Source: Escallonia rubra
Taxonomy: Eukaryota > Streptophyta > Magnoliopsida > Escalloniales > Escalloniaceae
Length of the DNA stretch: 64,000 nucleotides
Assembly: GCA_033065855.1 (NCBI GenBank)
Contig: JAVXUO010001289.1
Coordinates: 1 to 64,000, forward strand
Direction: 5' to 3'
Both the position numbers and the translations under genes were made by a program. This document shows positions 17,239 through 47,494 of this stretch, piece after piece; position 1 is the first letter of the stretch, and every line of letters begins with the position of its first letter. The notes beneath the pieces are model-generated. The model was given only the letters and a program-made list of their open reading frames with translations. It ran no database searches and was not told the origin of the DNA.

Positions 17239-17316
17239 GTAGGTAAAGGGTGTAAGGATTTATACTCCCTTATTTAGTAGATCTTCGGGACTTGTTTTTT
17301 CTGATCGAAAAAAATT

Positions 17317-18900: not shown

Positions 18901-18953
18901 ATCGTGTTTTTATGAACTGGGTGGGTGACTACATGGATGGTACTTGTAGGGTT

Positions 18954-23598: not shown

Positions 23599-23679
23599 GT
23601 AGGTAAAGGGTGTAAGGATTTATACTCCCTTATTTAGTAGATCTTCATAACTTGTTCTTTTCGATCGAAAAAAAATTGA

Positions 23680-23895
23680 CTGCTACTCGGGTTGAATGAA
23701 TTTTTCTTCATACTCTTCGTATAGCGACAATTAATGATCTCTATATATTTTTAGTGACTTTTATTTAGTGACGCTAAAAAAATATTATTAAAAATTATAG
23801 TTGAAAGTGTTAGAAGAAGAATCACCAGAAACATTTAACGACTATTAATTATTATTATATACGAAATTAGAAGAACATTCCTAAAGTTCGAATAG
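23680..23895. repeat. foldback MITE family, copy 3
   Basis: Equivalent of the copy at 17317, within repeat copy 2. Confidence 0.55.
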
Positions 23896-25349: not shown

Positions 25350-25553
25350 GGCTGCTACTCAAATTATATGAATCTTCTTTCAATTCTGTATATAGTGACA
25401 ATTAATAGTTACTAAATATTTTTAGTGGCTTTCAGCTAAATTCTTAGCCGCATTTTTTTTAGCGTTACTAAATAAAAGCTTCTAGAAATATTTAGACTTC
25501 ATCAAATGTCACTATATAGGGGGTAGGAGGAATTTATTTTTAATCCGGATAAC
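25350..25553. repeat. foldback MITE family, copy 4
   Basis: Equivalent of the copy at 20766, within repeat copy 2. Confidence 0.55.
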
Positions 25554-27385: not shown

Positions 27386-27670
27386 GGAGCTGATCTGTTG
27401 AGAGAGCTAGCAAAATGGGATATTTTGCAAGCGCGATCTGGCCGTCCATCCTGAAAGATGGACGGCCCAAACTTTTTTTTTCAAAAACTGTCAGTCGTCC
27501 GCGACATAGTGTCGCGGATAGCCCTTTTTACCATTTTTCCCCTCCTCCCCTGTCCGCTATACTGTGCGGCGGACGACTTTCATGTCCTGACATGTGTCAG
27601 GAAAAAGACGTCTGCTACACAGTATAGCAGACGTCCTCTCGACTGACACATGTCAGGGCCTGTCTCGTCG
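27386..27670 (+). repeat. left terminal inverted repeat of the giant MULE
   Basis: Matches the reverse complement of 42625-42909 over roughly 285 bp with about 10-15% differences by eye. It contains three of the GTCCGC...GCGGAC palindromes (from 27497, 27551, 27607). Confidence 0.88.
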
Positions 27671-29599
27671 CCCGCCAAGAAAGTCTCCCGTCAGTTCTTT
27701 ATTTCTGCACGTGTCAAAGTGTCGGCAATTATGTCCGCTATACAGTATCGCGGACAGTATTGCCCCCATACCCAAAAGTTTCATAATTCTCAGCTCTTTC
27801 AGCAAAAATTTCTTCTCCTTGAGATTCACTTACTTCCATTTTCAGCTCCCCCCAAGCTTCGAGTAACACTTGCTTCAAGCTTCATTCAAACAAGGTAAGT
27901 TTGTGATCTCAAAACTTTTCTGGGTGGATTGACTGATAAAGTATTTTTTTTTTTTTTGGACAAAAAAGTATAGATTTTTGGTGATGTTCTAGAAATTTGT
28001 CACTCTATTCATCAACTTGTGATGTTTTAGAAATTAATCTGTTAACTTTAAACAAATTCATTGTAGTTAATTTCGATTTTTTTGAGGTTCGCTAACTCCG
28101 ACACATGTATCCTATCTAAATTCGAATTTGTTGAGATATGTTTGTTGTATTTTGGCACGATGAATTTGTCTATTTATCTTAGTAATTTTAATTTGTTATG
28201 TTCAATAAATCTATAATTAGCAAAATGGGAAACACTTTTGAGATTATGTATATGGTATATTTGTCATCCTAAATTGGTCTATTCGCCAAGATAATTTTGA
28301 GGTAATATTTTCAGTTGAAAATGTCATTTGATTGTTAAGCGTAGTCTATTTCTACATAGGTCTTGTTTCACAATGTCTGATTCGTGTCGAGCTCCAACAC
28401 CCCCGTAGATGCTAGTGATTCGTATCTAGGACGAATGTTTCAAACATTGGAAGAAGCTGGAGAATGTTTTCGAGCATATTCATTGAGGGTTGGTTTCACT
28501 ACAAGAAAATACCTTTTTAGCTACGGATTTTTACCGACGGAATATATTCCGTCCGTAAATAGACTTTTAACCGACGGAACAGTCCGTCGTTAAATACTAT
28601 TACCGATGAAATGAACCGTCGACAAAAGTTTTTGCTGAAAATTTTTTTGCAGCGGTCTTTTAACAACAGAAATGCCGTAGCTAAAACTTTTTTACAAAAT
28701 TAGTGTTTTATAAAATTGTTTAAGCGACGGAATTTTACCGTCACTAAAACTTCCGTCGGTAAAGGTCGTCATTCACCGACGGACTTTTAGCGACGGGTAA
28801 TTCCGCTGTTAAAAGTCCTCGATTAAAACACCCAGATCTGCTTCTTACTCTCTCCCCGTTTCTCTCTCTGAAAATCACCTCTCAGCTCCGGCGATCCCCC
28901 TCCACGGTGACCTCTCCACTGCCGCCGCGTGAAAAGCTCTCCACTGCCGTCGCGCCACCAACGCCGCCGCCCTCCACTGCCACCGTCTAGTTCATGTCTT
29001 CTTTATTATAAGGTAAGTCCACTAAACCTAATTATTTTTGTTCTTCCCTTACAAATTTTGTGCATAATTTTCTGTATATGCTTGGAATAAATGTTTGGCT
29101 GTGTTACAAACATGCTTTGCTTTGATACTAATTTGATTTTGAACTTCAGTAAGGTTATAATAGAGTTTTTCAGTTTTCGGTTTCTTTCTTATATTTCGAT
29201 GCTCGACTTAAAATTAATTCCTGACTCCGACGCTAGTCATGAGTCCTCTAATTAATTACAATAACACCACAACACCTAAAACTAATGTTGTTGCTAGCTT
29301 GGGAAGGTTTAAAAAAGAAAAAAACTTTATCACCTGTGTTCATTGAGATTGCAAGTATATACCTATACATAAAACCTAACATTAATACCATACTGGGCTC
29401 AAGGCAAAGAACGGAAGGTTAATCATCTACGCCCTTGGTGGTTTGTATTGGTCGTTGAGGGTGGTGTTGCAGTGGTGCGACTGCGCTAGTGGATCGCGTA
29501 CGGTGGTGGAGAAAAGATCGATGGTGGTTTTGTGCTGGAGTGGTGGCTATGAGGGTTTGGTTGTGTGGTAAAGTTACAGCGAGATCTGAGGTGTTTGTA

Positions 29600-30060
29600 G
29601 GTATTTTTTCATAAGATTTAAGGGGTGTGAAATAATGAGGGAAAAGGGGTGTGTATTGAGTGTTTGTGTGTGTGTTTTAGGAGTGTACATGGTGTGTGTT
29701 TAAGTGAGAGAGTGTGTGTGTGTGTGGCAGTAGAAACAATGGTGTTGTGTGTGGTGTGTAATGTGCTGCAGCAGTGGTTTTGGCATGTGTTTTAGGGGCT
29801 GCAGCGCGGGGGGTGGGTGGGTGGGTTGTGGTGTGTGTTTTACGGGCTGTGATAAGGGCCGGAGGTGTATGTCTTAGGGACTGCAGTAGGTGTGTATGGG
29901 TGTGCAACAGTGTGCATGAGTGTGTGTATTTGTGCAGCTGTTTTGAATGTATGTGGGTGTAATGAGTGCTTGTCTGTGTGAGTTTAGTGAGTGAGTGAAT
30001 GGAGGGAAATGGGTGTAGCTTATGACGTGCTTTGTGTAGGGGTGTGATTGATGTGAGGTG
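29600..30060. repeat. GT-rich low-complexity tract inside the CACTA element
   Basis: TGTGTG runs mixed with TGGGTG and GAGTG. Reading frames here are repeat artefacts. Confidence 0.75.
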
Positions 30061-31365
30061 TGGAGTGAAAACAAATTCTATACCTCATTGACAATAAAAT
30101 CGACCTTAATGGGGGAAAATAGACTCACCATGAGAACAAAAGTAAGTCACTATCTTATAGTGAATATGAAACCGACCCCAAACCCAGAATCCACAGATGC
30201 GTTTCACTATTTTTCAAACACATGGAAGAGCGAGCACACAATAGAGTCACATGGCGATGTGTTCAGCCTGATTGAGGGAGCACATTGCCATAGATGGGCT
30301 ATGCACATCCAATAGGGGTGAGTTGTGCCAAGTTGATGGGGGTAGGCCAAGGTCGCGGTAAACCAAGATAACATAACCTGGAGACAAGTAATGAGAAAGT
30401 ACTTGATTTTCAGGAACTTGCCAAAAAAGATCATATGACGAAATATGTAGACCAAAATGTTCATGTAGCCGGTCCAACTAGTTTGCAGCCTTGATCTTCT
30501 GAAACGAACCAGATGAAATTGGTTCAACCGTAAATCGGCTAGTACAATGGTTCAATTCGTCAAACTGGACCTAAACTGGATGGGTGGACGGCAAGAAGAA
30601 GCCCAACCCACAATGGACCAGCACTAGTGGGTTAGAACTTAGAAGCTTCTACAAACAAACACTAGTGTAGTGGAGTGTAATGGGTTAGAAGCTTTTACCC
30701 GATGGAGCATAGCACTAGTTTATATTTAAAAGGGCAGCAAAAGTTCTCGCTAATTAGGAGGCAGTGATGGCTAGATTTGGCCCTTTGTCGCTAAAAGGTT
30801 TAGAAGTGTCGCTAATATCCCTTTTAACGGCAAAGGACGCAAATTTAGTCAAAAATGGTGCAAGCTTATTTGAAATAATTGATAATAATAGCCGACAAAT
30901 ACTGAATATTCGTCCTGCTTTCATTTTATTGACATAATATTCCTGCGACACCACCCCACTTGATAGATCACAACAAATCCTAACTATATACTACTCAACA
31001 ACGGCCATAGCTAAGCTCCTTAGTGTCAGCACAAGGCAGGATTGGTCTTCACTCTTCACGCTCTCCAAGGGAATAACAAACCAGAACAATTAAAAGAGTT
31101 TTTGCGACAAAGTTTTGTTACTACTTTTGCTTTTGTCGCAACATTACCAAGACAAGCCACTAATCATTTGCACCAACATATTTTTTCCACTCACAAGGAT
31201 TTGAGCAGTATTTTTTTCATTATGAAACAATTTTTCCATCTTCACGCCATAAAAAGCGTCCGAATATACTTTCCTTGAGGCTAGTAAAGTTTACTGTGTT
31301 GCACATGAAATAGTGGTTCTTGCAAGCATGAAAGATTCTTAAAAAATAAAGCAATGTCTTCGGAC

Positions 31366-31462
31366 GTGTCCGGAGGTTTCGAACACTTGTCAGTAGGAGT
31401 CGGACATGTGTCCAGAGGTGTCGGACACATGTCGGTAGGCGTCAGACACATGTCTAACGAGC
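31366..31462. repeat. second cluster of GTGTCGGACAC-like words
   Basis: Four or five copies of GTGTCGGACA / GACATGTGTC / GTCGGTAGGCGTC-type words in 100 bp, resembling the cluster at 393-562. Confidence 0.55.
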
Positions 31463-31875
31463 CTAATTAGTTTTAATTAACCCTAAGAACGCAATGAAAA
31501 TCAAATTAGCTGTAATTACCCCAAGTTAGCCCTAATTAGCAAATCTTTGAACTTTGGAGTTTTTTTTTTGTCTTCGTTAAGATCCAGTGATTGGATTTGC
31601 ACTAGGGTTAGGTTTCATTCAGTGATTGGTTTGAGATTTTTGGGGTGTTATTTGTAATATGTGAGTGACGTTCAACAATAGAGGTTGCTATTTGGGTGGT
31701 GAAATGATGATGTGCGTAGTTGAGATTTTTGTGGTAGTCATTTTAGTTACAACTCACTGTGGATCTATTTTTTTAGCATCACTTTAACATAATTTGATAG
31801 ATTTAATTCAGCTATGAAATTGATACTCGTCGATTGAATAATCCTCGATTGGTTTTTCATGTTAAAGTAGGTTAA

Positions 31876-32324
31876 ATGGCTTCTGATTCGGTGAACAAGG
31901 ACGTTTCAGTCAGCAGGCACTTCGTCAAGGTCATGATGCCTGGTTTTCATACATAACTTGTATATCATCCCACTTTCTCTGTATTTTCGTGTGTGTTAAA
32001 AGTTTTATCTTTGGTTAAAAACTTACATGTCTTACTGTATTATGAATATGTTAGGCCATACCGGTAGCATTTTGGAGATTGCTTACCACATTGAGATTTG
32101 AAGCAACTTTAACTGGCCTCAAGGGGTCATGGCTTGTTAAATTGAAGAAGAAGGTTGGCCAAGAGGTTATTTGCTTCGAAGAGGGTTGGAACGAATTCGT
32201 GCAGTAGCATGACCTCCATCTAGGAGACTTTGTAATCTTTGAACACATGGGGCAAATGCGTTTTCAAGTGCAAGTGTTTGATCAAAGCACTTGTGAAAAA
32301 CCTTTCCCCCAATGTTGAACTCTG
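31876..32324 (+). pseudogene. B3-domain gene fragment captured by the CACTA element
   Basis: From ATG 31876 (MASDS...) an opening exon reaches RHFVKVMMPGF. After an intron-like gap, exon 2 from about 32054 reads IPVAF, GSWLVKLKKK, ICFEEGWNEFV, an in-frame TAG (32205-32207) and HDLHLGDFVIFEH, the core of a REM-type B3 DNA-binding domain. A stop also interrupts exon 1 after MMPGFHT, and an extra C near 32310 shifts the final codons. It is a diverged copy of the gene at 35694-36157. Confidence 0.8.
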
Positions 32325-33417
32325 AGCCGTAATTAGACAATATTTTAAACTAATCGCATCGAATATGTACATTTTGAACAATTTTGTGTTATTTGAACAT
32401 TGACTATTTGTTTGATAATTTTAGGTTGTTAATTGTGCATTTGATAATTGTGATTATCGATCGATGATTGTTAATTGATGATTTTAGATTGTTAATCGTG
32501 CATTTGAGATATTGAGATTGTTGACGGAGGATGGGAGCCAATTAGTTTGAATTTTTTATTACAGGTTTGGGCATTAAAAAATTAAAAAAAATTAAAAATG
32601 ACTTTAACTTTTAGCGACGGATTAATTCCGTCGCTAAATTTTTTATCCCATCGCTAATTTCGTAAAAAAGAAAATAAATTAAAGTACGTAAGACAGAATT
32701 AGCGACGGATATTCCGTCGCTAATTTAGAAATAAATCCATCGCCAAACATTCTATATTAGACGACGGATTTTATAATTCCGTCGCAAAATTTTTAGTAAC
32801 GGCCTTTTATACGAAAGACTTTTTGCGACGGTAATTCCGTCGCTAAAAGTTTTAGCGACGGAATATAGGCTTTTAGCGACAGATTTTCCCGTCGCTAAAG
32901 GCCGTATTCCTTGTAGTGTTTTGGCATTAGAATAAAGACTACAAGAACAAGCAACGTAACGAAAAAGATATGCTCTCGCTTATACGAGTGTCATAGGGGT
33001 AGAAACCCAATGCAAAATGAGACATGCCTAGGCAACGATGACAGTGATGAAGAAATAGGATATTTGCGTAGAAGACGGGACTGCTTTGCATGCACAAATT
33101 GCCAGGTCAAGATGTTCGTAAGCTATAAACCCAAGCAAGATCATTGGCTTATTACCAGACTGGAACTGGCACACAATCACCTGTTAGTAACTCCTTTTAA
33201 GGTGAGTTAGATGCATCAACACAAGAAGTTGGGTAAGGTCGCGAGAAGCCTAATTCACACAATGAGCGATGCGCGGATATGACCTACCGAGATTGTTAAT
33301 GTTCTTGCTGAACAGACTGAGGGAATTCATAATTTAAACTTTAACACGGCAGACGTTCATAACGAGGTCCGAACCCATAGACGAGCCCCGTATGACCTCA
33401 ATGATGCTCAATCCACA

Positions 33418-35091
33418 ATGAGCCTATTGAAACGGATGCAGATGGAGAACCCGCAATTTACCTTCGATTATAAACTTGACGACGAGCATCGAGTTAGCAC
33501 AATTTTTTGGGTCGACGGTCGTTCGAGGCTTGCTTATAAGCATTTTAGGGATGTCGTGACTTTCGACACCACATACTGTACCAACAAGTACTCGATGCCG
33601 TTCGCTCCTTTCACGGGGGTCAATCATCATTATCACTCTATCCTGTTTGGGTTCGCCTTGTTAAGGGACGAGAGCGAGAGTTCTTTTGAATGGTTGTTTA
33701 GGGCGTGGCTGGAAGCCATGAACAACAAAGCACTAAAAGTTATCATCACCGATCAAGATTTGGAAATAAAGAAGGCTATTGCTACCGTCTTCCCAGATAC
33801 TCGACACAACTTGTGCACTTGGCACATAAGCAACAAATACCCTGAACGTTTGCATCACGTGTATGCAAAGTATCCAGACTTTAAACATGATTTTGACAAG
33901 TGCGTTAACAAGTCGTTAACGATTGAGGAATTTGAGGAGAGGTGGGAAAAGCTTGTTGAGGATTACTCATTGCAAGACAACGAGTGGCTCCAGCACTTGT
34001 ACGAGCTCAAAGAGCAATGGATTGGCGTTTACACGATGAGGCATTTTTCTGCGGGCATGAAAACGACGGGCATAAGTGAATCTATGAATGCCACGTTCGA
34101 TAGTTATGTGGGTACAACTACCAATTTGAAGAGTTTCGTCACATCCGCACAAAAAGCGGTTGCGTCGTTATTCGTGAAAGAAAGGGCTGCAGGCTTTGCA
34201 ACCACGTACAAACAAAGGAGAAGTTTGCTTGAGACCCCGCTGGAGCTGAACGGTGCCAAATTCTATACGAAGGAGATCTTCTTACTATACCAAGTAGAGC
34301 TACAAAAATTGGGACGATACTATATAAACAAGGTGGCAGAAAAGTCTACGCGTGAGTACAAGGTTTATTCGCTCGTGAATTACCTCGTCCCTGAGAAGCT
34401 GCGCAGAATTTATACAGTGAGCCACGACACATTGACGGACTCGGTGACATGTGTTTGCAAGAAGTTTGAGTTCTATGTCATCCTGTGTAGACACATTCTG
34501 CGATTTTTCACCCAGAAGAATATCAGGACAATCCCCGATAAATACGTTTTGCCACGATGGACGAAAGGTACAAATAGGTTGCACGGTACCATTACCTTTC
34601 TGGAGCACCCGTCTACTGACTTTGAAGAATCAGAGACATTACGGTATAATCATCTGGTGACGATGTTCACCTGTTTGTCCGTAAAGGGTGCTGCTACAAT
34701 GGTCGGATATAAACATCTCCTCGAGGTAGCTCAGCAGCAAGAGCCCATCGTCGACCAGTTGGAAGCAGCTTCAGTCACCAATGCGGTTGACACCGAGCCT
34801 ACGACGGGATCAGAAGATGACGAGCCGGGGGAGGAAGACGACAATGATATCCGACCTTTGGATCCAATTATATCGCAAACGAAAGGCTGCAAGAGATCTA
34901 CGCGGATGAAAAGCTCTATTGAAACGGCAACTCAACCTAAAAAGATAAGAAGGTGTGCATTGTGCAACAAAATGACCGACCACGACAAGCGAAACCATTA
35001 CAAGGCACTAGGGATAAGTCCAGGGGGTTTGCAAGACGGGGAAGAAGATGACGCCGAAGATGAGGACGAACAAGCTGCAGTGGACCTTTAA
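33418..35091 (+). CDS. MULE transposase, FAR1/FHY3-like, catalytic and SWIM part
   Basis: Open frame of 557 codons. The DDE core shows D50 in the TFDTTY motif, D112 in ITDQD, the C-x2-H of NLCTWH (C133, H136) and E221 in the GISESMN segment, which fits the third catalytic position of MULE/FHY3 proteins. A SWIM zinc finger C-x-C-x9-C-x-H spans C345-H359. The C-terminus is acidic (EDDEPGEEDDND; GEEDDAEDEDE) with a short C-x2-C...H zinc-like motif near 517-530. MULE transposases cut and move DNA at the TIRs. The start at 33418 is simply the first ATG after the stop at 33280; the ancestral protein began in the FAR1 domain upstream in the same frame. Expression would need an internal promoter. Confidence 0.85.
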   Translation: MSLLKRMQMENPQFTFDYKLDDEHRVSTIFWVDGRSRLAYKHFRDVVTFDTTYCTNKYSMPFAPFTGVNHHYHSILFGFALLRDESESSFEWLFRAWLEAMNNKALKVIITDQDLEIKKAIATVFPDTRHNLCTWHISNKYPERLHHVYAKYPDFKHDFDKCVNKSLTIEEFEERWEKLVEDYSLQDNEWLQHLYELKEQWIGVYTMRHFSAGMKTTGISESMNATFDSYVGTTTNLKSFVTSAQKAVASLFVKERAAGFATTYKQRRSLLETPLELNGAKFYTKEIFLLYQVELQKLGRYYINKVAEKSTREYKVYSLVNYLVPEKLRRIYTVSHDTLTDSVTCVCKKFEFYVILCRHILRFFTQKNIRTIPDKYVLPRWTKGTNRLHGTITFLEHPSTDFEESETLRYNHLVTMFTCLSVKGAATMVGYKHLLEVAQQQEPIVDQLEAASVTNAVDTEPTTGSEDDEPGEEDDNDIRPLDPIISQTKGCKRSTRMKSSIETATQPKKIRRCALCNKMTDHDKRNHYKALGISPGGLQDGEEDDAEDEDEQAAVDL

Positions 35092-35245
35092 TTTTTTGTA
35101 TAAGCTATCAAGTCTGTTTGACATTTGTAATAATTTTTTGTAATTTTTTTCTAATAATTTTTCGACCGAATATTGAAATTTTTTTCTAGATGGACCTATG
35201 AGAGCCATCAAATCTATGTTTAAGTTTTTTTTTATTTATTAGCCC

Positions 35246-35462
35246 CGTCCGCTACATAGTGTAGCGGACGCCTCTGCAGAGTCTTAAAACTCCAACATTT
35301 TAGAAAATTTTGACCTTCTTCTATCTCCGCTATACAATGTAGCGGACGGCTCTGCAGAGGGAATTTTTTGGTGTTCTTTTTGTCCGCCACACAATGTAAC
35401 AGACGACGTTACAGAAAAAACTTTTGGGGTTCTTTTGGTCCGCTATACAATGTAGCGGACGA
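35246..35462. repeat. four GTCCGC...GCGGAC palindromes after the transposase
   Basis: Copies at 35246-35270, 35325-35349, 35381-35406 and 35438-35462. The first three are followed by a CTCTGCAGAG- or ACGTTACAG-type phrase similar to that in the block at 38040-38640. They lie directly between the transposase stop and the B3 gene. Confidence 0.85.
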
Positions 35463-35693
35463 CTCTATCATGTTATATATTAATCAGATCGGCCTATCAT
35501 CTTATCACTCCGTCTGTTTCTTTATCTGTCTCGAACATCTCACCCAGCCAATACCCCATCTACGACGACCCATATCTTTGGTGACCCACATCTCCGGCGA
35601 CACCACCGTCCTCCACCCGACGCCGCGCCGCCTTCGGCGACAGCCCCGTCCTCCCCTCAACGCCGCGGCGCCTTCAGCGGCATCCCCGTCGTG

Positions 35694-36157
35694 ATGGCTT
35701 CTGATTCGTCGAGCAGCGAATTTGTAAGCAACATGCACCTTGTAGGCAGACACTTTTTCAAGGTCATGATGCCTGGTTTTGATACAGAACTCTTAGGCCA
35801 TCCCTCTTTCTCTGTGTTTTCGTGTGTGTTAAAAGTTTGATCTTTGGTTAAAAACTTACCTATTTTTTTATATTATGAATATGTTAGGACATACCGGTAG
35901 CCTTTTCCGATTGGCTTACCACACTTTATTTCGATTCAACTTTAACCAGCCGCAAGGGGTCATGGCATGTTAGAATTAAGATGAAGCGAGGCCAAGGTCA
36001 AATTTGTTTCGCAGAGGGTTGGAATGAATTCGTGCAGCAGCATGACCTCCATCTCGGGGACTTTGTACTCTTTGAACACACGGTAAACTGGAATTTTCAA
36101 GTGACGGTGTTTGATCAGAGCACTTGTGAAAAAACTTTCCCCAATGTTGAACCCTAA
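35694..36157 (+). CDS. B3-domain (REM-like) gene carried by the MULE
   Basis: A putative DNA-binding protein. Exon 1 starts at ATG 35694 (MASDSSSSEF) and reaches the first B3 strand GRHFFKVMMPGF. Exon 2, from 35888 after ...ATGTTAG, is open to TAA 36155-36157 and reads IPVAFSDWL, GSWHVRIK, ICFAEGWNEFVQ, HDLHLGDFVLFEH and FQVTVFD, the conserved order of a complete B3 fold. Donor position is uncertain (between about 35808 and 35822; a GTGTGT cluster); the exon 2 acceptor is phase 0. The GC-rich stretch 35560-35690 could be promoter or leader. Unlike the copy in the CACTA element, both exons lack stops. Just downstream, CCGTCGCTAAAAC and CCGTCGCCAAT (36292-36320) resemble CACTA subterminal words, hinting at how the gene arrived. 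Whether it is expressed is unknown. Confidence 0.72.
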
Positions 36158-36410
36158 ATTCTGTTATGAACAATTTTATGTTAATGTTCATTATTTTTCC
36201 GAATTTTAGGTTCTTAATTATGCCGTTTGAGAATTGTGATTGTTAATCGTACGTTTTTTTATTGTTAATCGATATTGAGATTGTTGATTCCGTCGCTAAA
36301 ACAATGTTTCCGTCGCCAATTTCTTAAAACAGAATTATCGTTGTCGGCTACAATGTCGACGGCGCAGCAGAAAGTCTGATCTCCACACTCAAAATTTTTT
36401 TGTTTCATGT

Positions 36411-36683
36411 ACGTCCGCTACACTGTGTAGCGGATGGCGCAACAGAAAGTCTGATCTCCACACTCAAAAAAATTTGTTTCATGTACGTCCGTTACACTGT
36501 GTAGCGGACGGCACATCAGAAAGTCTGATCTCCAACTTATTAAAAAAATTGTTTCCTGTACAGCGCAGTAGAAAGTCATCTACATCTGCTACACTTTATA
36601 GTGGATGACGCATCAGAAAGTCTGATTCCAACACTTCAAAAAAATTATGTTTCCTGTAGGTCTGCCACACTGTGTAGCGGACG
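36411..36683. repeat. four GTCCGC...GCGGAC palindromes after the B3 gene
   Basis: Copies at 36411-36436, 36486-36510, 36584-36609 (decayed) and 36660-36683, each followed by GACGCA-CAGAAA..GTCTGAT-type sequence, so the repeat unit is about 75-90 bp long rather than just the palindrome. Confidence 0.8.
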
Positions 36684-36949
36684 ACGCAACAGAAATTCCC
36701 AACACTTGGAAAATCGGAAGACGGGGTTCTCTTATTAGAATGACACGTGGATAAGTGCTAGTTGGTTAAAATATTGTTTCTCTCGTTTGAATTTAGGTAC
36801 CTCCCACTAGCCTCGGCCATTTCTTCCGCAAGTTGAAGCATGTAAAATCATTTTCTACGCAGTAACATCCGGTTATTTTCCATACGAATTTGGCACACAA
36901 CTTTCTTACACTGCTTAACATTACGCCTCGACATACTAAGTGAACGACG

Positions 36950-37153
36950 TTACGGCACAGGTGCTCTCAGCGTGGTGAGATCTTGGTGTAGTGCTTCTGA
37001 TTCCTTAACTCGATATGCCCATTCTCTTCGTAAACCTACATAATAATCTCTCGGATCCGTGTACTTCACTTCTTTGTAGTCGTCGTTCCTTTCACACAAC
37101 AACCACACAGTCTCACGTCCCCGATAACTAGAACTACCAGGAACTCCTGCCAT
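36950..37153 (-). CDS. unknown 67-aa ORF related to the 143-aa ORF
   Basis: No known family. Its second half (YTDPRDYYVGLRREWAYRV, ending LRAPVP) lines up with residues about 28-66 of the ORF at 37527 (SRYVNTLHAEWSYRM, ending MNIPIP): a conserved Y-Y/V-x2-L-x2-EW-x-YR pattern and a terminal P-x-P. It is shorter than its relative and may be a fragment or a first exon. It lies head-to-head with that ORF, 373 bp away. Confidence 0.4.
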   Translation of the reverse strand: MAGVPGSSSYRGRETVWLLCERNDDYKEVKYTDPRDYYVGLRREWAYRVKESEALHQDLTTLRAPVP

Positions 37154-37526
37154 TTAACTTAGGTACATCTAATGCGATGAGTATGGTTAACATATATAAA
37201 TAAGCCCACACACACACATACACAATATATTGGTGTGATAACTACACAATAGCCTGCCCATATCTGGTGAGAAGACAAGTTTCTGGACACTGACACCCTG
37301 CTTAATTAGTAGTTGGAGACAATAGCATGCCCATGTTAGTGAGAAGACACGTCTTTGGTGACAAGACAAGTCTCTGGTCTTTTGCATCGACTTGTCACAT
37401 CTCATAAAGTTGAACCTGTAGCATCTAATAAAGTGGTCCCGTTTCAAAATTTATGTAAGTACATGCATTGCATGAAGGGCAAAAGGCAAAGAGTGATATA
37501 CTCCCAGTTTCATAACAACTCTCGAA

Positions 37527-37958
37527 ATGTCATATACTCCACAAGATATTTTTGAAGCAATGGATCGTTACTGGGCGGGCGAAGATGAATTTTACTATTC
37601 TTTGCGTCCAAGTTTGCGTTACTCATCACGCTATGTCAATACATTACATGCAGAATGGTCTTATCGGATGAATGAATATGAGGTCTTAGTAGCTGATTCA
37701 CGGCGCATGAATATACCCATACCTCGACAAATGGCAATCAACATGCCTCGAATTACACACATGGAGCTTGAAAGGGCACTGCATCGAATACGTGAAGAAA
37801 ATAATAGAATGAGAGTTCGTCAAAGTAGACATAACTTACGTCGTATGTCACGTGATGCACATGAAGATGGCAACAACAATGAAGCACAAGTATACTGGAA
37901 CATGAGCTTCGAACTTGGATCTGTTTCCGATGCTCCAGTGTCAGATGAAGATGACTGA
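37527..37958 (+). CDS. unknown 143-aa ORF inside the giant MULE
   Basis: Unrecognised, but gene-like: a clean frame beginning MSYTPQDIFEAMDRYW, rich in charged and aromatic residues, with an arginine-rich predicted helix (ERALHRIREENNRMRVRQSRHNLRRM, residues about 88-113, not shown in full by domain) and a strongly acidic end (SDEDD). A related sequence on the opposite strand (36950-37153) suggests a small gene family travelling with this MULE. The basic helix plus acidic tail would fit a nucleic-acid- or chromatin-binding accessory protein, but that is a guess. It is followed directly by the tandem palindrome block. Confidence 0.5.
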   Translation: MSYTPQDIFEAMDRYWAGEDEFYYSLRPSLRYSSRYVNTLHAEWSYRMNEYEVLVADSRRMNIPIPRQMAINMPRITHMELERALHRIREENNRMRVRQSRHNLRRMSRDAHEDGNNNEAQVYWNMSFELGSVSDAPVSDEDD

Positions 37959-38039
37959 AGATGCTCTAATGTCACGCTGTGTCAACGATGCTGTTTCTTT
38001 GTAATTTAATCTTAAGACTCCAACTCTTAGAAATTTTCG

Positions 38040-38640
38040 ACCGTTCGCTATACTATGTAGCGGACGTCCCTGCAGAAATTCATTGGTGCTCTTTACGTCC
38101 GCTATACTATGTAGCAGACAGCCCTGCAGAAAGTCAGATATCCAACACTTAGTTTTTTTTTGTTCTCTCTACGTCCGCTATACTATGTAGCGGACGGCCC
38201 TGCAGAAAGTCAGATATCCAACACTTAGTTTTTTTTTGTTCTCTCTATGTCCGCTATACTATGTAGCGGACGGCCCTGTAGAAAGTCAGATATCCATTAC
38301 TTAGTTTTTTTTTTGGTTTAGCGGACGGCCTTGCAGAAAGTCAGATATCCAACACTTAGTTTTTTTTTTGGTTCTCTTTACGTCCGCTTTACTATGTAGC
38401 GGACGGCCCTGCAGAAAGTCATGTCTCCAATACTTAGTTTTTTTTGTTCTCTCTACGTCCGCTATACTATGTAGCGGACGGCCCTGCAGAAAGTCATGTC
38501 TCCAATACTTAGTTTTTTTTGTTCTCTTTACGTCCGCTTTACTATGTAGCGGACGGTCCTACAGAAAGTCAGATATCCAACACTTAATTTTTTTTTTGGT
38601 TCTCTCTACGTCCGCTTTACTATGTAGCGGACGGGCCTGT
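38040..38640. repeat. tandem block of nine palindrome-bearing units
   Basis: About nine units of 55-80 bp, each made of GTCCGCTATAC-T-ATGTAGCGGAC-type palindrome, the phrase CCCTGCAGAAAGTCA, then ..ATATCCAACACTTAG and a T-run leading to TTCTCTCTAC. Palindromes begin near 38042, 38096, 38171, 38247, 38320 (half only), 38380, 38455, 38530 and 38609. The block separates the convergent 143-aa ORF and the PMD-C48 gene. Confidence 0.92.
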
Positions 38641-38948
38641 AGAATCAAAGAAACCAAAACTAGCCAATTTTGTGGCCCTGAGCAATCTTAAAGCTCCAAC
38701 ACTGACCCACGCTTTGTTTCCCACTGTTCAAAGCAAATCACAAATTAGTCAATGAGCCAAAATGCTATCTCTGACCATAAATCAAACACTCAATTGATTT
38801 CAACACAACGATATCGGTCAGTCAAATCAATCGCATTTAACACCGATCAACTGATGTCAACACAAATCAATTCAAACCCGATGAATGAAGAACAACTTTC
38901 ATAAAGATAATATATGTTTATTAAAAAAGTGAATATAATGTTACAATG

Positions 38949-41900
38949 TCACTTGGGGACCTCATCTACTGCGAGATTCTCGTCATTACGCGGATTTACA
39001 ATAAACCTAATAGCTCTAGGCCGGTCTTTCATAATTTGCCAAGCTATCCTATACCTAAAGCCTTGTATGCATTCTCGGCTCCAGATAGTCTTTTCGAGGT
39101 TCTCAGACCGACAAATGTAATCCATGTACATGCAGACGAAGACGCCGCAGTCCGAGGAATTATGTTGCTTGAATTGGGCCTACGCCTCTTCAATCGGAAA
39201 AGGAGCTTCGGCCTGCGCGGTACACTCTCGTGACGCCTACCATTAACCAAGGCACCAAATAGATTCTGCGAGAAACATAATAAGCATTAAACATTAAACA
39301 TAGCAAACATAATAAGCATTAATCAGTTTTACAATATGCAAGTTACAATAAGAATTAAACAGGATCTTACCATGGCATCCAACTGGCCTATGCCTTTGTA
39401 CATGGTAATCATAGGCATCTCGGGCGTATCATAGTAGAGACTGTCGATGACTGATACGACCTTCTCTACTGGTTCATATAAAACCAAGTACCAGTGGGCA
39501 TTCCCTAAAAATGGGATTAGAAACACGTCGACAACACTTGCGGTCACTGGACTATCCCTAGCAAGATATGCTTGTAGGTTAGCGAACGGTCTTCACTGCG
39601 CCAGGGTTCTCCTCCCCCTTGAATCAACCCAGTCGTGCTAGTCTTATACTAGGATGCCATGAAAAAAAGCATCCAAGATAAAAATGTGCGGACCGATATT
39701 TAGCTGCTCCCGACCCCTTTGCCTCAGAATTTGCACGTAGTGCGAGATGACACCGTTGTCTAATCAAGCTCCCGGCACCAGCGAGGCCATTTCTGACCAC
39801 GAGCAATTGCAATCCAAGCACCCCGGGTGATCCACGTCATACGACACTCTGTCTTGGGGGGGCCCGCTAAAATAACGGGCTCGGATTAGCTCGCATTTAT
39901 GCGGCGTTAAGGGCCTGGCTGGATGCCCTTTCGGATATTACCCTCGAGGGTCGATCGGGGGATATAGCCCTCCTTCAGGGGGGGTCAACCGGCAAATATT
40001 GCCCTTTACCGGGGGGCAAGAGCAAGGGATATTGGCCTCCAATTTCTGGTTCGGCCGGCTGATAATGTCATTCGGAGGCCCTGGCCGGCTGATATTGCTC
40101 TCCGGCCATTTCTTCCGCCGACTGATATTGCCCTCCGAGGAGGTCAAACGAGGGATATTGCCCTCCGGGGGCGCCAAGTGGTCCCGCCTACGAGACAATA
40201 GGTAGTGCCTCAGAGAAACCGTAGTTTCTGAAAGGCCAGTCTTGCGTGACTTGACTCTGAGAGAGGGGTTGGGGTTCCGGGAACAAATTGAAGGAGGGGA
40301 CATTGTAATCGTCCCACGACACTTGAGCCTGTCATATCCCCGCTACAGAGGGACCACCAACTCCCTGGCTCACCCCTGAAGCCTGTCTCGAGGGATCACT
40401 GTATCCCTCACTGACGCCTGTATAACCCATTACCAGACTGAGGACAGAAAACTGTCCCGATGCTTGGCGCAAAAAATTCCCGCAGCCTAAAGCCAATGCA
40501 GCAGCCTGTTGACGAAGATCCTCACCCATTGCGCTCACCAGATCATTTCGCTCACTCAACTTCTGGAAGAATGCAAACGAGGCATTAACCTACATCCAAA
40601 GAGATAAAAATTAAGTAACTTCAATCAGACATTTATATTCATCAAATTCAATTAAGAACACTTGTTGGACAACTTACGAGATTGTATGCCATATGCTCAT
40701 CAATCTGACCCCTAGGGTGGTACTTCTCCCCGCGTTCAAAGTTTACTGGGGCTACTCTCCTCCGCGTGATGCGGTAGTACCAATCATCGTATTGTCAGCT
40801 GCCACTCTCCTCCGCGTTCAAAATGGCACATTGCTCGGTCTGGCAGCTGCCACTCTGCGACCTCAAAGTGGATCAGGGGTGTGCGCTGCAACACGGAGAG
40901 CGTGAAGACGAATGACTCTCCCACCCTTTGCGCCAAACGTATGTACGGTGCCCAACGCATTTGGCCCGGAGATAGACGGTCGTACTCCCCTCGATAGTAC
41001 GTAATGTTGTGATAGGGATCGACTCTCCTCGGGTAGTGGCTCTCCCTCCGGCTGTACTCCCAAGCACACAACCGATGCCACACTTTATTGGTTCCATCCC
41101 TATGCGTTGGTGCATCGATAGCAAGGTGTTCATAAGACCACACCTGAGAACAAGGGCAAATTATATTTATATCGTCGATTCAACAAAAAAAAAAACAATA
41201 ACGAAGACATGATTTATATGATATACCTGCAATAGCTAGAGACATGCACATATGGCTTTGGAGTCGGGCCTCGTTGCCTTGTGCAATGCTCGGTACAGAT
41301 ACGAAAGAACCGTTGCACCCCAAGCATAATCCCCAACCTCCCGCAGGTTACCCAACAACGGTAAATATTTCACGCTGACCATGTTCTTCGACGTCGTTGG
41401 GAATAAAATTGCCCCCATCACCCACAAGAGGAAGGCTTGTGTGTACATCACAAGCATCTCACCCGTATAGTTTTCCGGCAAAACCCTGTAGGTATCTACT
41501 AACCACTGCTAAATTGATCCTGGGGTATCGAAGTGAAGAAGTTCCTAGCGGTTCTCTTATTTGTTGCTTCTGACGGAGGAGCAATTACCGGCCACCCCGT
41601 CACCGGTAACCCTAAGATGAACCCTACATCTTTTAGGGTAATTGTCATATCTCCGAGCGGGAAATGAAACGCCACCTTTCAACAAGGGCACCTATTAAGT
41701 GCCGGTCAATGTGTTGAAAGATCTGCCCATGCGTGAAAATCCCAAACCCAATTCCACGCAGTATCCTTTTCTGGGACTTGTTCAATTTCCATGCTGTGAA
41801 CTCGTTAGATACTTCTACGGTGGTGAGAAGTTCTCTTTCCTACGAATTAATAAATACAATTTAAGCAAAACAAACGGTATACAACGTTCGTAAGAATAAG

Positions 41901-42009
41901 AAAGTTGATAAATAATGTATCTTACTCCACCATCCCATATGAACGTACTGATATGGTTGGCTTGGTCGTATAACACGGATGAATCTTCTGGTCCAGGGTT
42001 AAATTCCAT
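38949..42009 (-). pseudogene. PMD-C48 (plant mobile domain + ULP1-like protease) gene of the MULE
   Basis: Exon 1 from ATG 42009 (MEFNPGPEDSS...FIWDGG) ends at a GTAAGA donor. Exon 2 from about 41839 carries the plant mobile domain: LVERW, FHFPLGDMTITLKDVGFILGLPV, later YLPLLGNLREVGDYAWGATVLSYLYRAL, then a further exon near 41143 with VWSYEHLAI and Y-Y-R-GEYD. A low-complexity linker of 10-11-aa repeats follows (about 40190-39960). The C48 cysteine-protease end shows His in GNAHWYLVLYEP (about 39490), Asp in VIDSLYYD and Cys in KQHNSSDCGVFVC (about 39145), ending at 38949. The frame is broken in several places: a short deletion after VERW, a shift before WLVDTYRV, and stops before and within the C48 start. 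ULP1-type proteases remove SUMO or ubiquitin-like tags. In MULEs their role is unknown. Confidence 0.82.
39960..40190 (-). repeat. 30-33-bp tandem repeats in the PMD-C48 linker
   Basis: On the minus strand an open frame reads successive 10-11-residue units of the form x-E-G-N-I-x-R-L-x-P-P (six or seven units, for example PPEGNIPRLTS, SEGNISRRKKW, VKGNICRLTPP). At the DNA level the phrase ATATTGCCCTCCG recurs on the plus strand. Confidence 0.65.
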
Positions 42010-42471
42010 TTTTTGCAACTAAAATTATGAAAAAACCTTCTCAGTTTGGATTTTGATAATCGCTCGCAAAAATACGATCCTAGCACATGCATAATACATA
42101 TAACGCAATCACATGCATAATACATACAATGTTAGCATATACTCATATGTATAATAGATATATATACATACACGGAATCGGATTTTACAAACGCTAGCAC
42201 ATGAACAAATACATACATATATAAATTCTCATCGCTAGCACATGCTCAATGCATAATCAAAACCGCACATAAAACGCAATATTCATCACAACTATAGATT
42301 ACAAACATGTAAATGATTGATTTTGTGAACTTACGTGATCTATTAAGGTATTAAAGGTGTTCTTAAGAAGAAATTGCGCAGATCTGCTTGCCAACGCCGC
42401 TGGAAATATTTGTGAGTAGAAAGAATGGAGAATAGTGTCGTAGTTAGGGCTTTTTTGAATATATATTAAAT

Positions 42472-42797
42472 TTCCGCTATACAGTATCGCAGACCATTTT
42501 ACAACGTCCGCTTCACTATATCGCGGACTATTTATCAATAAAACACGTCCGCCACACTGTGTAGCGGACACTGTTGACGTGACAGATAAGGACAAGATAA
42601 TCGTCGTGGGGGTAAAGGACTGACGGGACAGTTCCTGACATGTGTTAGTCGAAAGGAAGTCCTCTACATTGTGTAGCGGACGTATTTTTCCTGACACATG
42701 TCAAGGCAAGAAATTCATCCACCGCACAGTGTAGCGGACATGGGAGGAGGGGCAAAATGGTAAAAAAAGACCATCCACGACACTATGTCGCGGACGA
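42472..42797. repeat. six GTCCGC...GCGGAC palindromes near the right end
   Basis: Copies at about 42472, 42504, 42546, 42660, 42717 and 42773, the last three lying inside the right terminal inverted repeat. Confidence 0.85.
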
Positions 42798-42909
42798 CTG
42801 ACAGTTTTTGAAAAAAAAAGATATGGGTCGTCCATCTTTTCAGGATGGACGGCCAGATCGCGTTTGCAAAATATCCCATTTTGCTAGCACTCTCAACGGA
42901 TCAGCTCCC
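42625..42909 (-). repeat. right terminal inverted repeat of the giant MULE
   Basis: Inverted match to 27386-27670. The outermost bases, reverse complemented, are GGGAGCTGATCCGTTGAGAG. A (TA)n tract follows directly. Confidence 0.88.
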
Positions 42910-42923
42910 ATATATATATATAT

Positions 42924-43680
42924 GGGGGAGATGATCCATTGACAGTACTGTGCATCTAAACTGTCCATCTTAGTACCTTGAACGGTCAAGATGATTTATA
43001 TTTCAACAAATTTTAGTCATCCGCCAGATTATCTACCGGACGTGCCATTTGACGTTATTGCCCCCCCCCCCCCCCCAAGCAAATGTTCTGTATATCTTGT
43101 TCATCTTCCGTATTCAGCTTCCAGACAAGCAAGACTTTTTTTAGATTTCTCCCTCAACTAAGCAACCACTTCACAAAATTGTCGCTGCCAATGTCGCACT
43201 CAAACCCATTACAACCCACCCTATTTTCCTTTTAACAACAGATACAAGAACAATGAAACGAAGAAAAAATAGAAGTAGAAGAAGAAGCAATTTCATTGAA
43301 TTATGTGATTTGTTTTTCACAGATCTGAGATCGGTCTCCATGTAATCTTCTCCAGGTTCTGTACGGTGGAGGTATGGTGGTTGTGGTGGTGCTTGGTCTG
43401 GTGTGCGGTGGTAAGGAGATAGGGGAGAGAGAGCTTCGGGAGAAATAGAGAGACGACATGAAAGGAAGAGGGGACAAAGGAAAAAGAGAGAGAAACGCAT
43501 ATGAGGAAGGGGGGATTGGGGCAAAAAAGTCATATGTTTCGTTCGCCACATAGTGTGGCGGACTTGGTAAAGAGAGTGAAAAAAAAAGTGAATCTTGACC
43601 GTCTATATAAAGCGTTTGGGCGGTCAGATCACAGCTTACAACTTAATTAAGTTGTCAGCGTTGTCAACGGATCAACTCCT
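42924..43680. mobile_element. small non-autonomous relative of the giant MULE
   Basis: Starts GGGGGAGATGATCCATTGACAG and ends, reverse complemented, AGGAGTTGATCCGTTGACAAC. Both resemble the giant MULE terminus, and (TA)n lies on both sides. It carries one GTTCGCCAC...GTGGCGGAC palindrome (43540-43563) of the same family. The interior includes a run of 16 C (43061-43076) and a GA-rich stretch with no recognisable gene. A 757-bp deletion derivative or satellite element of the same family is inferred. Confidence 0.65.
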
Positions 43681-43934: not shown

Positions 43935-46900
43935 TGAGAATTACATTGATAATAAAAAGGTTATAAGAGTTTGATAGAGGCAGCCATAAGGCTTTACAAG
44001 CAAGATCCTGACGATCTTTGCCAAGATGAAAAAAATAAATACAGATACAACAAAACTATGGCACCAGTAGAGAGGAGATCATGCAAGATACAACTTAAAT
44101 AAAGGAAAGAGAGAGAGAGCTCATGGCAGCATATGTGCATTAACCCAGTCTTGATAGACGTTGATGCGGGCTTTACATGCAAAAGCTGCTAGGGATCTGG
44201 CCTCTTGAAGTTGTAAGACTGTAGCTCTGTCGATACTGCAAAAGTGTAAAGTAGCTGCAAAATGACAGATATCATAGAAAATTGGTGCCACCTTATCGAA
44301 TATATCCTCAGTGTCCGTCATCTGAGAGATTAAAAAATTTGAGTTAGTAGAAATTGTGATGTGTTTCAACTTCTGACGTTCAGACCATTTTAACACAGTT
44401 AAGAGTCCTTTTGCCAGTGCACTGTTTCTATCTGAGACGGTAAAAGTTATGGCAGCAGATCCGCATCTCTGCTGTAAATGATTAAAACAAGATAGCCCCA
44501 CTCCTGCTTTTCGCATACTTTTGTTGAAGCTTATTGCAATGAGGAGCTTGATAGGTTCTTTTTTGAGGCAGATGCATGAGAGAGGGACATTGTGGTAGAT
44601 AAAGGGCAAGTGATTAGGTTTTGGAGAAGGTTTTTTGGCTAAGGTGTACGAACCATTATAGTTTTTAAAGGCATTGGTGATATTGAGGGATAAATCTCTA
44701 ATGTATTTAATAACCAAAACCGGGTTGAACTCAGTGTGGCGAAAGATGATATGGTTTCGATGTATCTAGATCCCCCAGAGAGTTAATATAATGATAATCA
44801 ATTGGCTTCTAAAATTGCTTTGTAGATTGGCCCGTTGTAGCCATGCAATGAGCCATTCCCGCAGAGGACACATAAGAGCATCTGTCTTGATCCCCATAGG
44901 GCCACCAAACCAAATGGGTCGTGTTTTGGGGCATTGTAAAAATAGGTGATCAAGAGTTTCTGATGTAGTTAGGCAAAGAGGACACATATCTGATGGGATA
45001 ATATTGAAGCGCTTAAGTTTTGATTGTAATGGCAAACGATCCCATAGGATTTGACATAGAAGGAACTTCATCTTTTGAGGGACGCGGAGAGGCCAGATTG
45101 ACTTCCAGAACTTTTCTGTCATATTAGGTAAGGAGGCAAGGTGGCCCAATCTACATAATTCCTGTGATTTATGACTATGAAGCATATCATAAGCAGTTTT
45201 GACAGAGAATATTCAAATGAGGTAAACTGCCAAATCTGTTGATCTTGGATAAGATGAGGAGATATATGTATTGTGATGATACTAGGAATCAGAGAAGGGC
45301 TAAAAAGTTGCTTTAGAAGATTGATGTCCCAGTGGCCTTCCTTGATAAGATGGTTTACAATTCCATTTCTGATGGTTATGTCCGAGCTAGAATAGAGTGG
45401 TTGAGATGCACAGTTGGGAATCCATTTATCTTGCCAGATTGAAATTTTGGTTTCGGTTCCGACTTGCCATCTCATCCCCCTTTTCAAAACATTCATTCCT
45501 GCCACTATGCCTCGCCATCCCCACGAGAAATGTCATTTATCAGGGCTAGAAAGAAAGCTGGATCGCATGCAGTATTTGCCAGGCATGATGCGTGCTAGTA
45601 AGCAGTCCGGATCTGTCCATATTTTCCTACTTGGTTTGGCTAAAAGGGCAATGTTAAAGGCACCAATTTCCTTAAAGCCAAGGCCTCCTTGGCTTTTTGG
45701 TGCACATAAGGTATGCCAGTTGAGCCAATGGATTCCTTTTTTGTTGTCATCACCTGACCACCAAAATCGACCAAGAATAGCATTAATTGCTTTAATCACA
45801 TATTTTGGGAAGATAATTACCTGCATGTGGTAGGTTAGTAAAGATGTGAGTACTGAGATGAGAAGGGTTGCACGACCAGCTTTGTTAAGTAGACATCCTT
45901 GCCATCCAGCACATCTTTGTTGAATTTTGGCAATAAGATTTTGGAAAAAGAGCTTCCGGTTGTGGACAATATCTAGCGTACTTCCTAGATATTTGCCAAA
46001 TTCTTGAGACGGTTGGAGACCTAACCATTGCTCTATGTTGCTCGAGTCCCAGTGAGTTTCATTGAGACTAAGAGATAAGGAGAATTTGCTGTGGTTTATA
46101 AGTTGGCCCGAGTCTTCACAGTACCACTGAATGATTAGATTTATATGCTGACATGAGGCTTGATTAAGTTTGGTGTACATCAAGGCATCATCAGCAAAGA
46201 ATAGATAATTGATTGATGGGCTTCGGATACCGGCTTTTAATCCTGGAATCTTTCCCAGAGACTGTGCTTTCTTCAGGGAGGCAGAAAGAACTTCGGCGCA
46301 AAGAATGAATAAATACGGGGACAGAGGGTCCTTTTGCCGAAGGCCGCACTGAGGTTGGAATCGCTCAGTTGGCGAGCCATTAAGAAGAATTTCATAGGAA
46401 ACCGACGTGATACATTTCATGATGAGGTGAATGAGGTGTGGTGGGAGTTTCACATGAGTTAGGACCGCCTTCAGAAAATTCCAATTTGCATGATCAAAGG
46501 CTTTACTCATATCCATCTTGATCATACCAAGAATATGTTGCTGCCCTTTCGAAGTCCTTATTTTGTTGGTAATTAGGCAATGAAGCTATTGTCTCTTATT
46601 TGTCTACTGCCCACAAAGGCATTCTATTGTTCTGAGATGAGATGACCAAGGAACAACTTTATACGGTTGGCAATAGTTTTGGAAATGATTTTGTAGATGG
46701 TGTTGCAAAGAGAGATTGGTCTTAAATCACTAGGGGTTGAAGGTGACCCACTTTTAGGGATCAAGACAAGGAAGGATTTATTTGTTTTTCGTAGAAGATG
46801 TCCGGAGCGAAGAAAGGAAAGGACTGCCGAGGTAATCAGATGTTGCATAAAATCCCAGCATTGTTGGTAAACGATGGCTAGGATTCCATCTGGGCCTGGT

Positions 46901-47205: not shown

Positions 47206-47494
47206 TGTTTCTACAGAGCTATCGATGTTTATTATTCAATGACCAAAAAGTCACGGATGTGTTGCATTGGTGGGTCAAGTAAAACAACAAATGCTTTTGC
47301 AAAATATTGTTGATTTCGTAAAGTCACTGTATTTGATCAGTGAATCATTCTCTCTCTCTAACTTTTAAACATTTAGCGGCCTTTTGCTCGTTTAATTACT
47401 GGAATGAATCTTGACCCACATAATTAGAACACAGACTTCTTGAGTAATAATCCACGCACCCAAACGAAAGCACACCCCGCTATGAACTGAAACA

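Follow-up and report, generated by a model that had tools for sequence, protein, structure and literature searches.

A high-copy Jittery-like MULE of Escallonia rubra that carries a REM-type B3 gene, a small paralog pair and a PMD-C48 gene among palindrome arrays

Introduction

The VANC proteins of VANDAL elements bind short motifs tandemly repeated in the non-coding DNA of these elements and strip silent marks from it (PMC5735166, PMC10398659). Transposon-encoded proteins with a PMD domain have been suggested to represent a counter-silencing strategy (PMC8616336), and PMD fused to a protease is already in print (PMC7156037). SaTar elements are described as linked insertions in microsatellites (PMC5907723). 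The binding peaks of the REM8 protein are reported to contain AAGCGGAT repeats (PMC12270911). Here we describe a Mutator-like element (MULE) located in a 64,000-nucleotide stretch of Escallonia rubra DNA (contig JAVXUO010001289.1, assembly GCA_033065855.1; hereafter the window, to which all coordinates refer). The element belongs to a family in which a FAR1-type transposase is accompanied by a B3 gene, two small genes and a PMD-C48 gene, with short palindromes between them.

The Element and Its Family

The MULE spans positions 27386-42908 and is bounded by long terminal inverted repeats (TIRs) of approximately 285 bp (27386-27669 against 42622-42908, an inverted match of 88.5% over 287 columns). 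Its transposase is matched in Pfam by the FAR1 (E 1.2e-8), MULE transposase (PF10551, 6.8e-31) and SWIM (1.8e-4) domains, and the presence of FAR1 at the N-terminus and SWIM at the C-terminus makes the element, as judged by domains, a Jittery/FAR1-type MULE. The transposase, the B3 gene and an open reading frame (ORF) of 143 amino acids lie on the plus strand, while a second small gene and the PMD-C48 gene lie on the minus strand. An earlier note on this DNA had seen a single MULE in the paired 285-bp TIRs and the transposase, and both the TIR alignment and the PF10551 match bear this out; the FAR1 transposase, B3, PMD and C48 are likewise found by Pfam at the places and on the strands that it gave, and its small unknown gene pair consists of the 143-aa ORF (gene A) and a decayed minus-strand paralog (gene B) starting at 37153. 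The element is thus real, but the length of 15.5 kb assigned to it was wrong, for a nested CACTA element of 4.4 kb had been overlooked; when this is subtracted, the MULE proper measures 11,098 bp.

The nested element has the termini of a CACTA transposon, CACTACAAG...CTTGTAGTG, with TTT on each side as a 3-bp duplication, and carries inverted subterminal repeats of the TTCCGTCGCTAAA type at both ends. It splits the FAR1 exon of the MULE transposase, the frame of which is continuous across the empty site when the CACTA is removed. No transposase domain was found in the seven ORFs scanned within 28497-32918, and the element is taken as a non-autonomous copy. The window copy of the MULE is dead: besides the CACTA insertion, its transposase contains two in-frame stops between 33208 and 33282, after the FAR1 domain, gene B has nonsense codons, and both the B3 and the PMD-C48 genes are damaged. 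The likely donor splice site of B3 deviates from that of the 11 other MULE copies and three CACTA copies aligned, and exon 2 has a one-base length difference near its end, because of which only 1 of 25 copies is frame-identical to the window exon; the PMD-C48 gene, when compared with its relative in copy C1749, shows a 161-bp gap and several small insertions or deletions. Gene A is still open.

The organisation of the element could be judged from its relatives in the host genome (566 Mb in 3,222 contigs), where the best 40 of 2,311 candidates for the left TIR and the best 40 of 2,591 for the right TIR with adjoining DNA were scored. Seventeen other copies were fetched, either with both TIRs among the scored matches or with top scores, and they are therefore close relatives of the window copy. 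In the fetched stretches, the B3 gene is present in 14 of the 17, the 143-aa gene in 13, and PMD and/or C48 in 16, with identical order and orientation. Gene B is found in 13 copies, in one of them merely as a fragment, and a partial one appears in copy C408 at looser settings. Six copies run from TIR to TIR and measure 7.5 to 15.7 kb. One of these, C1664, lacks both B3 and the small pair through an internal deletion, and C2492 is missing the 143-aa gene. Copies C469 and C1973 were covered in part, and a B3 place lies inside the span of C469, which makes it the fifteenth copy with this gene; in C2432, the PMD exons come from a second element arranged back to back with the first. The recurrence of the gene set makes it a feature of the family and not a result of chance insertions in one copy. 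The earlier note had called the layout organised rather than accidental and had named relatives without the cargo genes as the outcome that would speak against this; this outcome did not occur, the exceptions being C1664, C2492 and the partly covered C469 and C1973. The idea that B3 is a chance CACTA fragment in the window copy alone is rejected, since 14 of the 17 copies have the gene in the corresponding position.

Both flanks of the window copy are (TA)n, in which a target duplication of 8-11 bp cannot be distinguished. TA repeats stand at, or a few bases from, all 24 element ends displayed (17 loci, the window's included), and, as its insertions are flanked in this way, TA microsatellites are the target of this high-copy MULE family of the FAR1 (Jittery-like) type. 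The family unit is almost certainly one of about 11-12 kb, composed of a TIR, the transposase, B3, the divergent small paralog pair, the opposite-strand PMD-C48 gene and the second TIR, with palindromes in the intergenic gaps and in the TIRs.

A separate 753-bp element (42927-43679) has related TIR ends (GGAG.TGATCC.TTGA) and begins in the TA repeat at which the MULE ends on the right. It holds one palindrome (43541), and little similar sequence exists elsewhere in the genome (108 candidates, of which 40 were scored).

The Cargo Genes

The B3 gene has a phase-0 intron and encodes a single domain of approximately 115-122 aa, matched by PF02362 with E values of 8.9e-11 to 1.1e-10. The sole two PDB matches, 1yel (At1g16640, 3.9e-5) and VRN1 (0.0087), are both REM-type, and with its greatest likeness to the REM/VRN1 proteins the product is, by sequence, a REM-type B3 protein. 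A related B3 occurs in the CACTA elements of the same genome. At least 39 other genome places, of 4,211 candidates, match at 88-95% the CACTA segment that extends from B3 to the 3' end; the choice of this segment means that CACTAs without B3 could not appear among the matches. Such elements exist, since the CACTA nested in MULE copy C2381 has related ends and no detectable B3 exon, so that B3 is not universal among the CACTAs of Escallonia rubra. An open B3 frame of 115 aa is present in two fetched CACTA-type copies. When the B3 protein was used in the search, the best 150 of 1,416 candidates ranged from 91% down to ~69%; many of those at ~71% have identical scores, and among these several of the CACTA places from the segment search recur. 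The identical exon 2 scores suggest a recent spread of a B3-bearing CACTA with an open frame.

The connection between the two superfamilies is also visible next to the gene. The homology of the MULE and CACTA B3 extends from the ATG to the CACTA subterminal repeat, which adjoins B3 in 19 of 25 B3-bearing MULE copies (window included) and, nested CACTAs aside, is found nowhere else in the MULE-copy stretches examined. Since B3 is present on at least 39 other CACTA copies and the repeat lies beside it in most MULEs, it is likely, in our judgement with good confidence, that the MULE family acquired B3, along with part of the subterminal repeat, from a CACTA family that carries this gene in the same genome. 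The simplest reading would place this CACTA-to-MULE transfer before the spread of the MULE family. The CACTA and MULE B3 sequences differ more at amino-acid level than in the intron, but positive selection is not claimed, for synonymous divergence also exceeds intron divergence and base composition may explain both.

Genes A and B are divergently placed paralogs, 26-29% identical, and six other copies have gene B as an intact ORF of 144 aa. For gene A, the best 150 of 1,339 candidate places (window included) were scored, all of which are at least 91% identical and 130 of which are stop-free. A single-sequence search with the 143-aa protein returned no homologs, whereas a joint profile of A and B retrieved 47 proteins with E no higher than 8e-13 from a set of 5.8 billion, among them proteins of Camellia fascicularis, Quercus suber, Quercus lobata and Daucus carota. 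E43, W44 and M95 are invariant across the 48 sequences of the family. The Pfam search with its 48 members gave a best E of 0.0086, the PDB profile search 0.16, and Foldseek 2.6 (PDB) and 1.3 (viral), all of which we take as chance. The predicted structure of the gene A product is all-helical, with a predicted local distance difference test score (pLDDT) of 85.2 and a predicted template modelling score of 0.69 in the best model, and pLDDT of 74-76 in the four others. As far as the profile relatives indicate, the small pair represents an unnamed eudicot protein family that is transposon-borne in Escallonia rubra.

The PMD-C48 gene is matched by PMD (8.5e-18 and 1.2e-11) and Peptidase_C48 (4.1e-5). 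In the window sequence, H, D, Q and C of the C48 site are readable, and these we take to be the active-site residues. In the relatives, the linker between the two parts contains peptide repeats, as judged by eye. No VANC gene or DUF1985 was found at the cutoff in the ten pieces scanned; a weak DUF1985 match (E 0.0063) lies inside the PMD segment.

Constraint was measured as omega, corrected for the mutation spectrum and calibrated on non-coding stretches of the family, in a smaller set of 13-17 copies and in a larger set (small genes, 34 copies; B3 exon 2, 25; transposase, 16). When all changes in the smaller set are counted, omega is 0.75 [0.65-0.86] for the transposase, 0.55 [0.38-0.82] for its FAR1 part, 0.61 [0.40-0.91] for gene B and 0.93 [0.59-1.65] for gene A. 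With shared changes in the larger set, gene B has 0.38 [0.26-0.55], gene A 0.44 [0.27-0.73] and the transposase 0.66 [0.51-0.88], next to 0.78 [0.59-1.05] for a non-coding control; in the smaller set, the C48b segment gives 0.52 [0.27-1.01] on shared changes. Stops are depleted in gene A (5 against 11.3 expected; shared, 0 against 4.0). The safe reading of these values is that the transposase is constrained. The small genes probably are as well, and for them conservation across species is the better evidence.

The Palindromes and Their Possible Reader

The dispersed palindrome family seen in the earlier note stood up to counting. With up to five mismatches tolerated, 28 palindromes are found in the window, 26 of them within the element, whereas five shuffled versions of the window average 0.8. 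In 11 copies, 240 sites were found in the fetched stretches, of which 232 lie inside the elements; no site falls in a coding span, and the same slots recur: in the TIRs, after the left TIR, between transposase and B3, between B3 and gene B, before C48 and before the right TIR. The block before C48 contains 5 to 10 sites in nine copies and none in two with deletions there, a variation reminiscent of how the tandem repeats targeted by VANC turn over (PMC5735166). Genome-wide, the exact palindrome pattern has 9,925 occurrences and its reversed control 0. Its AGCGGA core, counted on either strand, is found 32 times in the 11.1-kb element, against a mean of 3.9 and a maximum of 10 in shuffles, and is present 0 times in coding spans and once in the nested CACTA. 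The formation of RNA hairpins was considered as the purpose of the palindromes, and the small arm-to-arm covariation speaks against it.

In a subfamily typified by C1881 (L061 and L045), the small-gene cassette faces the other way with respect to PMD-C48, and the palindrome array, with a period of ~80 bp, is built from a different sequence, GTCCGCTATATAGTATCGCGGAC. We had regarded a subfamily composed of L044, L045, L049, L050, L055, L058 and L060 as B3-less, for no B3 lies in the 1.9 kb that precede its 143-aa gene, and have withdrawn this reading, since the inversion of the cassette in C1881 means that the wrong side had been read for B3. None of these elements was recognised among the 150 scored B3 places (of 1,416 candidates), and the B3-facing side of C1881 lies beyond the part covered.

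Motif arrays between the genes and several accessory proteins are also the arrangement of VANDAL elements, and for this reason self-recognition for anti-silencing is what we take as the most likely role of the set. One accessory protein of the present family combines PMD, peptide repeats and an ULP1-type domain. The palindromes would be putative binding sites of an element-encoded protein, with B3 as the first candidate and the small pair or PMD-C48 as others; we regard the chances that a protein of the element reads them as evenly balanced. Such a reader may coat the family's own non-coding DNA, and copies would thereby stay expressed and movable, as VANC achieves for VANDAL. A REM-type B3 in particular could occupy sites at which REM factors of the host would recruit RNA polymerase IV (Pol IV). 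Anti-silencing as the purpose is proposed tentatively, by analogy, whereas the reading as a whole, an organised MULE with element-encoded, VANC-like self-recognition, may be right or wrong with about equal probability in our estimate.

Transposition-helper functions come next. The palindromes and the small pair may serve transposition itself, in the assembly of a complex or in TA targeting, with the small proteins as helpers like mudrB, and we consider this unlikely but plausible. TnpA is a transposition helper for En/Spm. Complete copies have two or three palindromes in each TIR, the small pair has the lowest shared-change omega among the accessory genes, and the TA repeats at the 24 ends fit a targeting function; the authors of the SaTar work propose an ancillary targeting system (PMC5907723), and mudrB is apparently needed for the integration of MuDR (PMC6446971). 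Most palindromes, however, are internal and form tandem blocks of varying size, and AutoMuTAnT resides in TA repeats with one ORF (PMC4486113), so that helpers seem unnecessary for targeting.

The palindromes might instead be host silencing signals, to which REM-type factors of the host bind and bring Pol IV, the element B3 being uninvolved. The core AGCGGA resembles the REM8 motif (PMC12270911), with which half-sites, when shuffled, have a six-base word in common at a rate of 0.011. In the non-coding DNA of the family, C-to-T changes are most frequent per site at CG and CHG, a pattern that methylated DNA would be expected to show. This leaves unexplained why the complete copies, the deletion derivative C1664 excepted, keep 18-28 sites and why the element has a REM-type gene at all, and we find the explanation quite improbable.

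The last alternative is that B3 and PMD-C48 are captured passengers and that the palindromes, read by no protein, multiplied as tandem repeats through slippage. Gene capture by MULEs is frequent (PMC13317346), C1664 is complete from TIR to TIR without B3 and the small pair, and several observations that favour this alternative at the same time weigh against self-recognition. Omega for B3 exon 2 is 1.23 [0.89-1.76] in the smaller set and 1.18 [0.92-1.61] in the larger one when all changes are counted, and 1.37 [0.91-2.13] on shared changes in the larger set; the PMD and C48 segments give 1.02-1.06 (all changes, smaller set); and the stops of gene B are not depleted (18 against 18.9 expected; shared, 5 against 5.6). 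The ratio of nonsynonymous to synonymous divergence between CACTA and MULE B3 is 0.44-0.90, a range into which pseudo-ratios computed for non-coding DNA also fall (three stretches, 0.60-0.67; B3 intron, 0.45). Even the low values of the small genes are to be read with care, as one non-coding control is also low on shared changes in the smaller set (0.50 [0.27-0.89]) and the 20 added copies were the best gene A scores, which biases gene A towards constraint. The safe reading is that constraint on B3 and PMD-C48 is undetectable at this sampling depth, and the lack of detectable constraint on B3 is the main weakness of the proposed mechanism. To this are added the palindromes of the C1881 subfamily, where B3 was not seen in the part covered, the small covariation of the palindrome arms (8.26 pairs of 10, against 8.12, standard deviation 0.04, in shuffles) and the fact that the motif resemblances to REM8 and CACTA were picked post hoc (P 0.011 and 0.009). 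Passengers would nevertheless hardly be expected to show the retention of B3 in 14 of 17 copies, the depletion of amino-acid changes in the small genes, the conservation of the small family across eudicots or the presence of a related B3 in another superfamily, on at least 39 other copies. None of the 26 window palindromes lies in a coding span, which has a P of ~8e-11 if the sites are independent, which tandem copies are not. On balance, we hold mere passage to be distinctly unlikely.

Within self-recognition, a stronger form can be imagined, in which the REM-type B3 is a portable anti-silencing module that passed from CACTA to MULE, reads some ten thousand AGCGGA palindromes and blocks REM-guided recruitment of Pol IV. 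We consider it improbable. If true, two unrelated superfamilies would share one stolen DNA reader, and the CACTA subterminal repeats, TTTAGCGACGG, and the MULE palindromes, TGTAGCGGAC, would have diverged along with the protein.

Features of the Window

The features of the MULE are collected in Table 1.

Table 1. Parts of the MULE and of the CACTA nested in it, with positions in the window
Feature	Position	Strand	Basis or remark
Left TIR	27386..27670	+	three palindromes within; (TA)n outside
Palindrome between left TIR and transposase	27733..27755		site scan
Transposase, FAR1-domain exon, portion ahead of nested CACTA	28381..28496	+	empty-site frame resumes at 32922
Nested CACTA-type element, 4,422 bp, not MULE material	28497..32918		TTT both sides; no transposase domain in seven ORFs
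Broken B3 copy of nested CACTA	31876..32330	+	repeat/alignment comparison with MULE B3
Transposase, remaining FAR1 domain, MULE (PF10551) and SWIM	32922..35091	+	ORF and Pfam scan
Palindrome block 1, 4 sites, transposase-B3 gap	35247..35460		site scan
MULE B3 gene, two exons (35694-35792, 35888-36157), single REM-type domain of ~122 aa	35694..36157	+	Pfam, alignment, PDB matches
CACTA subterminal-repeat remnant adjoining B3 gene	36284..36334	+	repeat comparison
Palindrome block 2, 4 sites, ~74-bp period, B3-gene B gap	36413..36682		site scan
Small gene B, with nonsense codons; 144 aa elsewhere in the family	36719..37153	-	decayed paralog of gene A
Small gene A, 143 aa, open	37527..37958	+	ORF, genome search, profile search
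Palindrome block 3, 8 sites, ~76-bp period, gene A-C48 gap	38043..38632		site scan
PMD-linker-C48 gene, several exons, broken here	38949..42008	-	Pfam, comparison with relatives
Three palindromes, PMD-C48 start to right TIR	42472..42569		site scan
Right TIR	42622..42908	-	three palindromes within; (TA)n outside

Elsewhere in the window, the loci at 47486-52003 and 60646-63302 each pair an RNase H-like (RVT_3) ORF with a RING/IBR ORF and apparently represent a duplicated gene of ubiquitin-ligase type. Reverse transcriptase and RNase H-like ORFs at 44121-47202 (minus strand) probably belong to a decayed element of the LINE (long interspersed nuclear element) type. BED zinc finger and hAT transposase ORFs at 57491-59257 are in one frame with a stop between them. 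Several collinear direct repeats with 82-99% identity lie at 17239-20839 and 23599-25423, apparently the result of a local duplication.

Comparison with Known Systems

The earlier note had held the combination of genes to be undescribed. The full combination was indeed not found in our searches of open-licence PubMed Central papers, and neither were a recurring MULE B3, its sharing with CACTA elements, the small protein family or the palindrome arrays; ULP1 sequences and antisense PMD genes in MULEs, on the other hand, are in print. The family offers a many-copy case of a DNA-binding gene that is common to two transposon superfamilies in one genome and has probably passed from one to the other. 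It also draws attention to an unannotated family of eudicot proteins, here carried by a transposon, and allows a direct test of whether transposons counter REM-directed silencing with a REM-type protein of their own.

In the consulted portions of the papers cited below, the likeness of the Escallonia rubra MULE to described systems is as follows. MuTAnT/AutoMuTAnT of Medicago and SaTar/AgS-MULE of guayule resemble it in (TA)n insertion, TIRs and linked elements (PMC4486113, PMC5907723), and the AutoMuTAnT transposase is likewise similar to that of Jittery (PMC4486113). AutoMuTAnT, 4.9 kb long, has one ORF, and the length of AgS-MULE1 is 5.3 kb; the same portions make no mention of B3, a small pair or PMD-C48 for them. 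The Jittery-like MULEs of grapevine and melon share with it a Jittery-like transposase and a ULP1 sequence in the element (PMC2528002), and B3, a small pair and palindrome arrays are not mentioned for them there. MULE groups 42 and 45-50 likewise have PMD on the strand opposite to the transposase, often antisense, whereas the Jittery group (36), the plant group with FAR1, has no PMD in the table of the same paper (PMC6446971), in which it differs from the MULE described here. To the REM proteins (VRN1, At1g16640, REM8), the likeness is in the REM-type B3 domain and, for REM8, also in the half-site core AGCGGA; unlike them, the Escallonia rubra B3 is encoded by an element and consists of a single domain of ~115-122 aa. 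The VANDAL/Hiun (VANC) and Kaonashi (KIU) MULEs are alike in accessory genes, non-coding motif arrays, a ULP1-bearing protein and peptide repeats. The tandem motif arrays in non-coding DNA that characterise VANDAL elements are present in the Escallonia rubra MULE, which is set apart from them by its long TIRs, its palindromic motif, its B3 gene and its unnamed small protein family.

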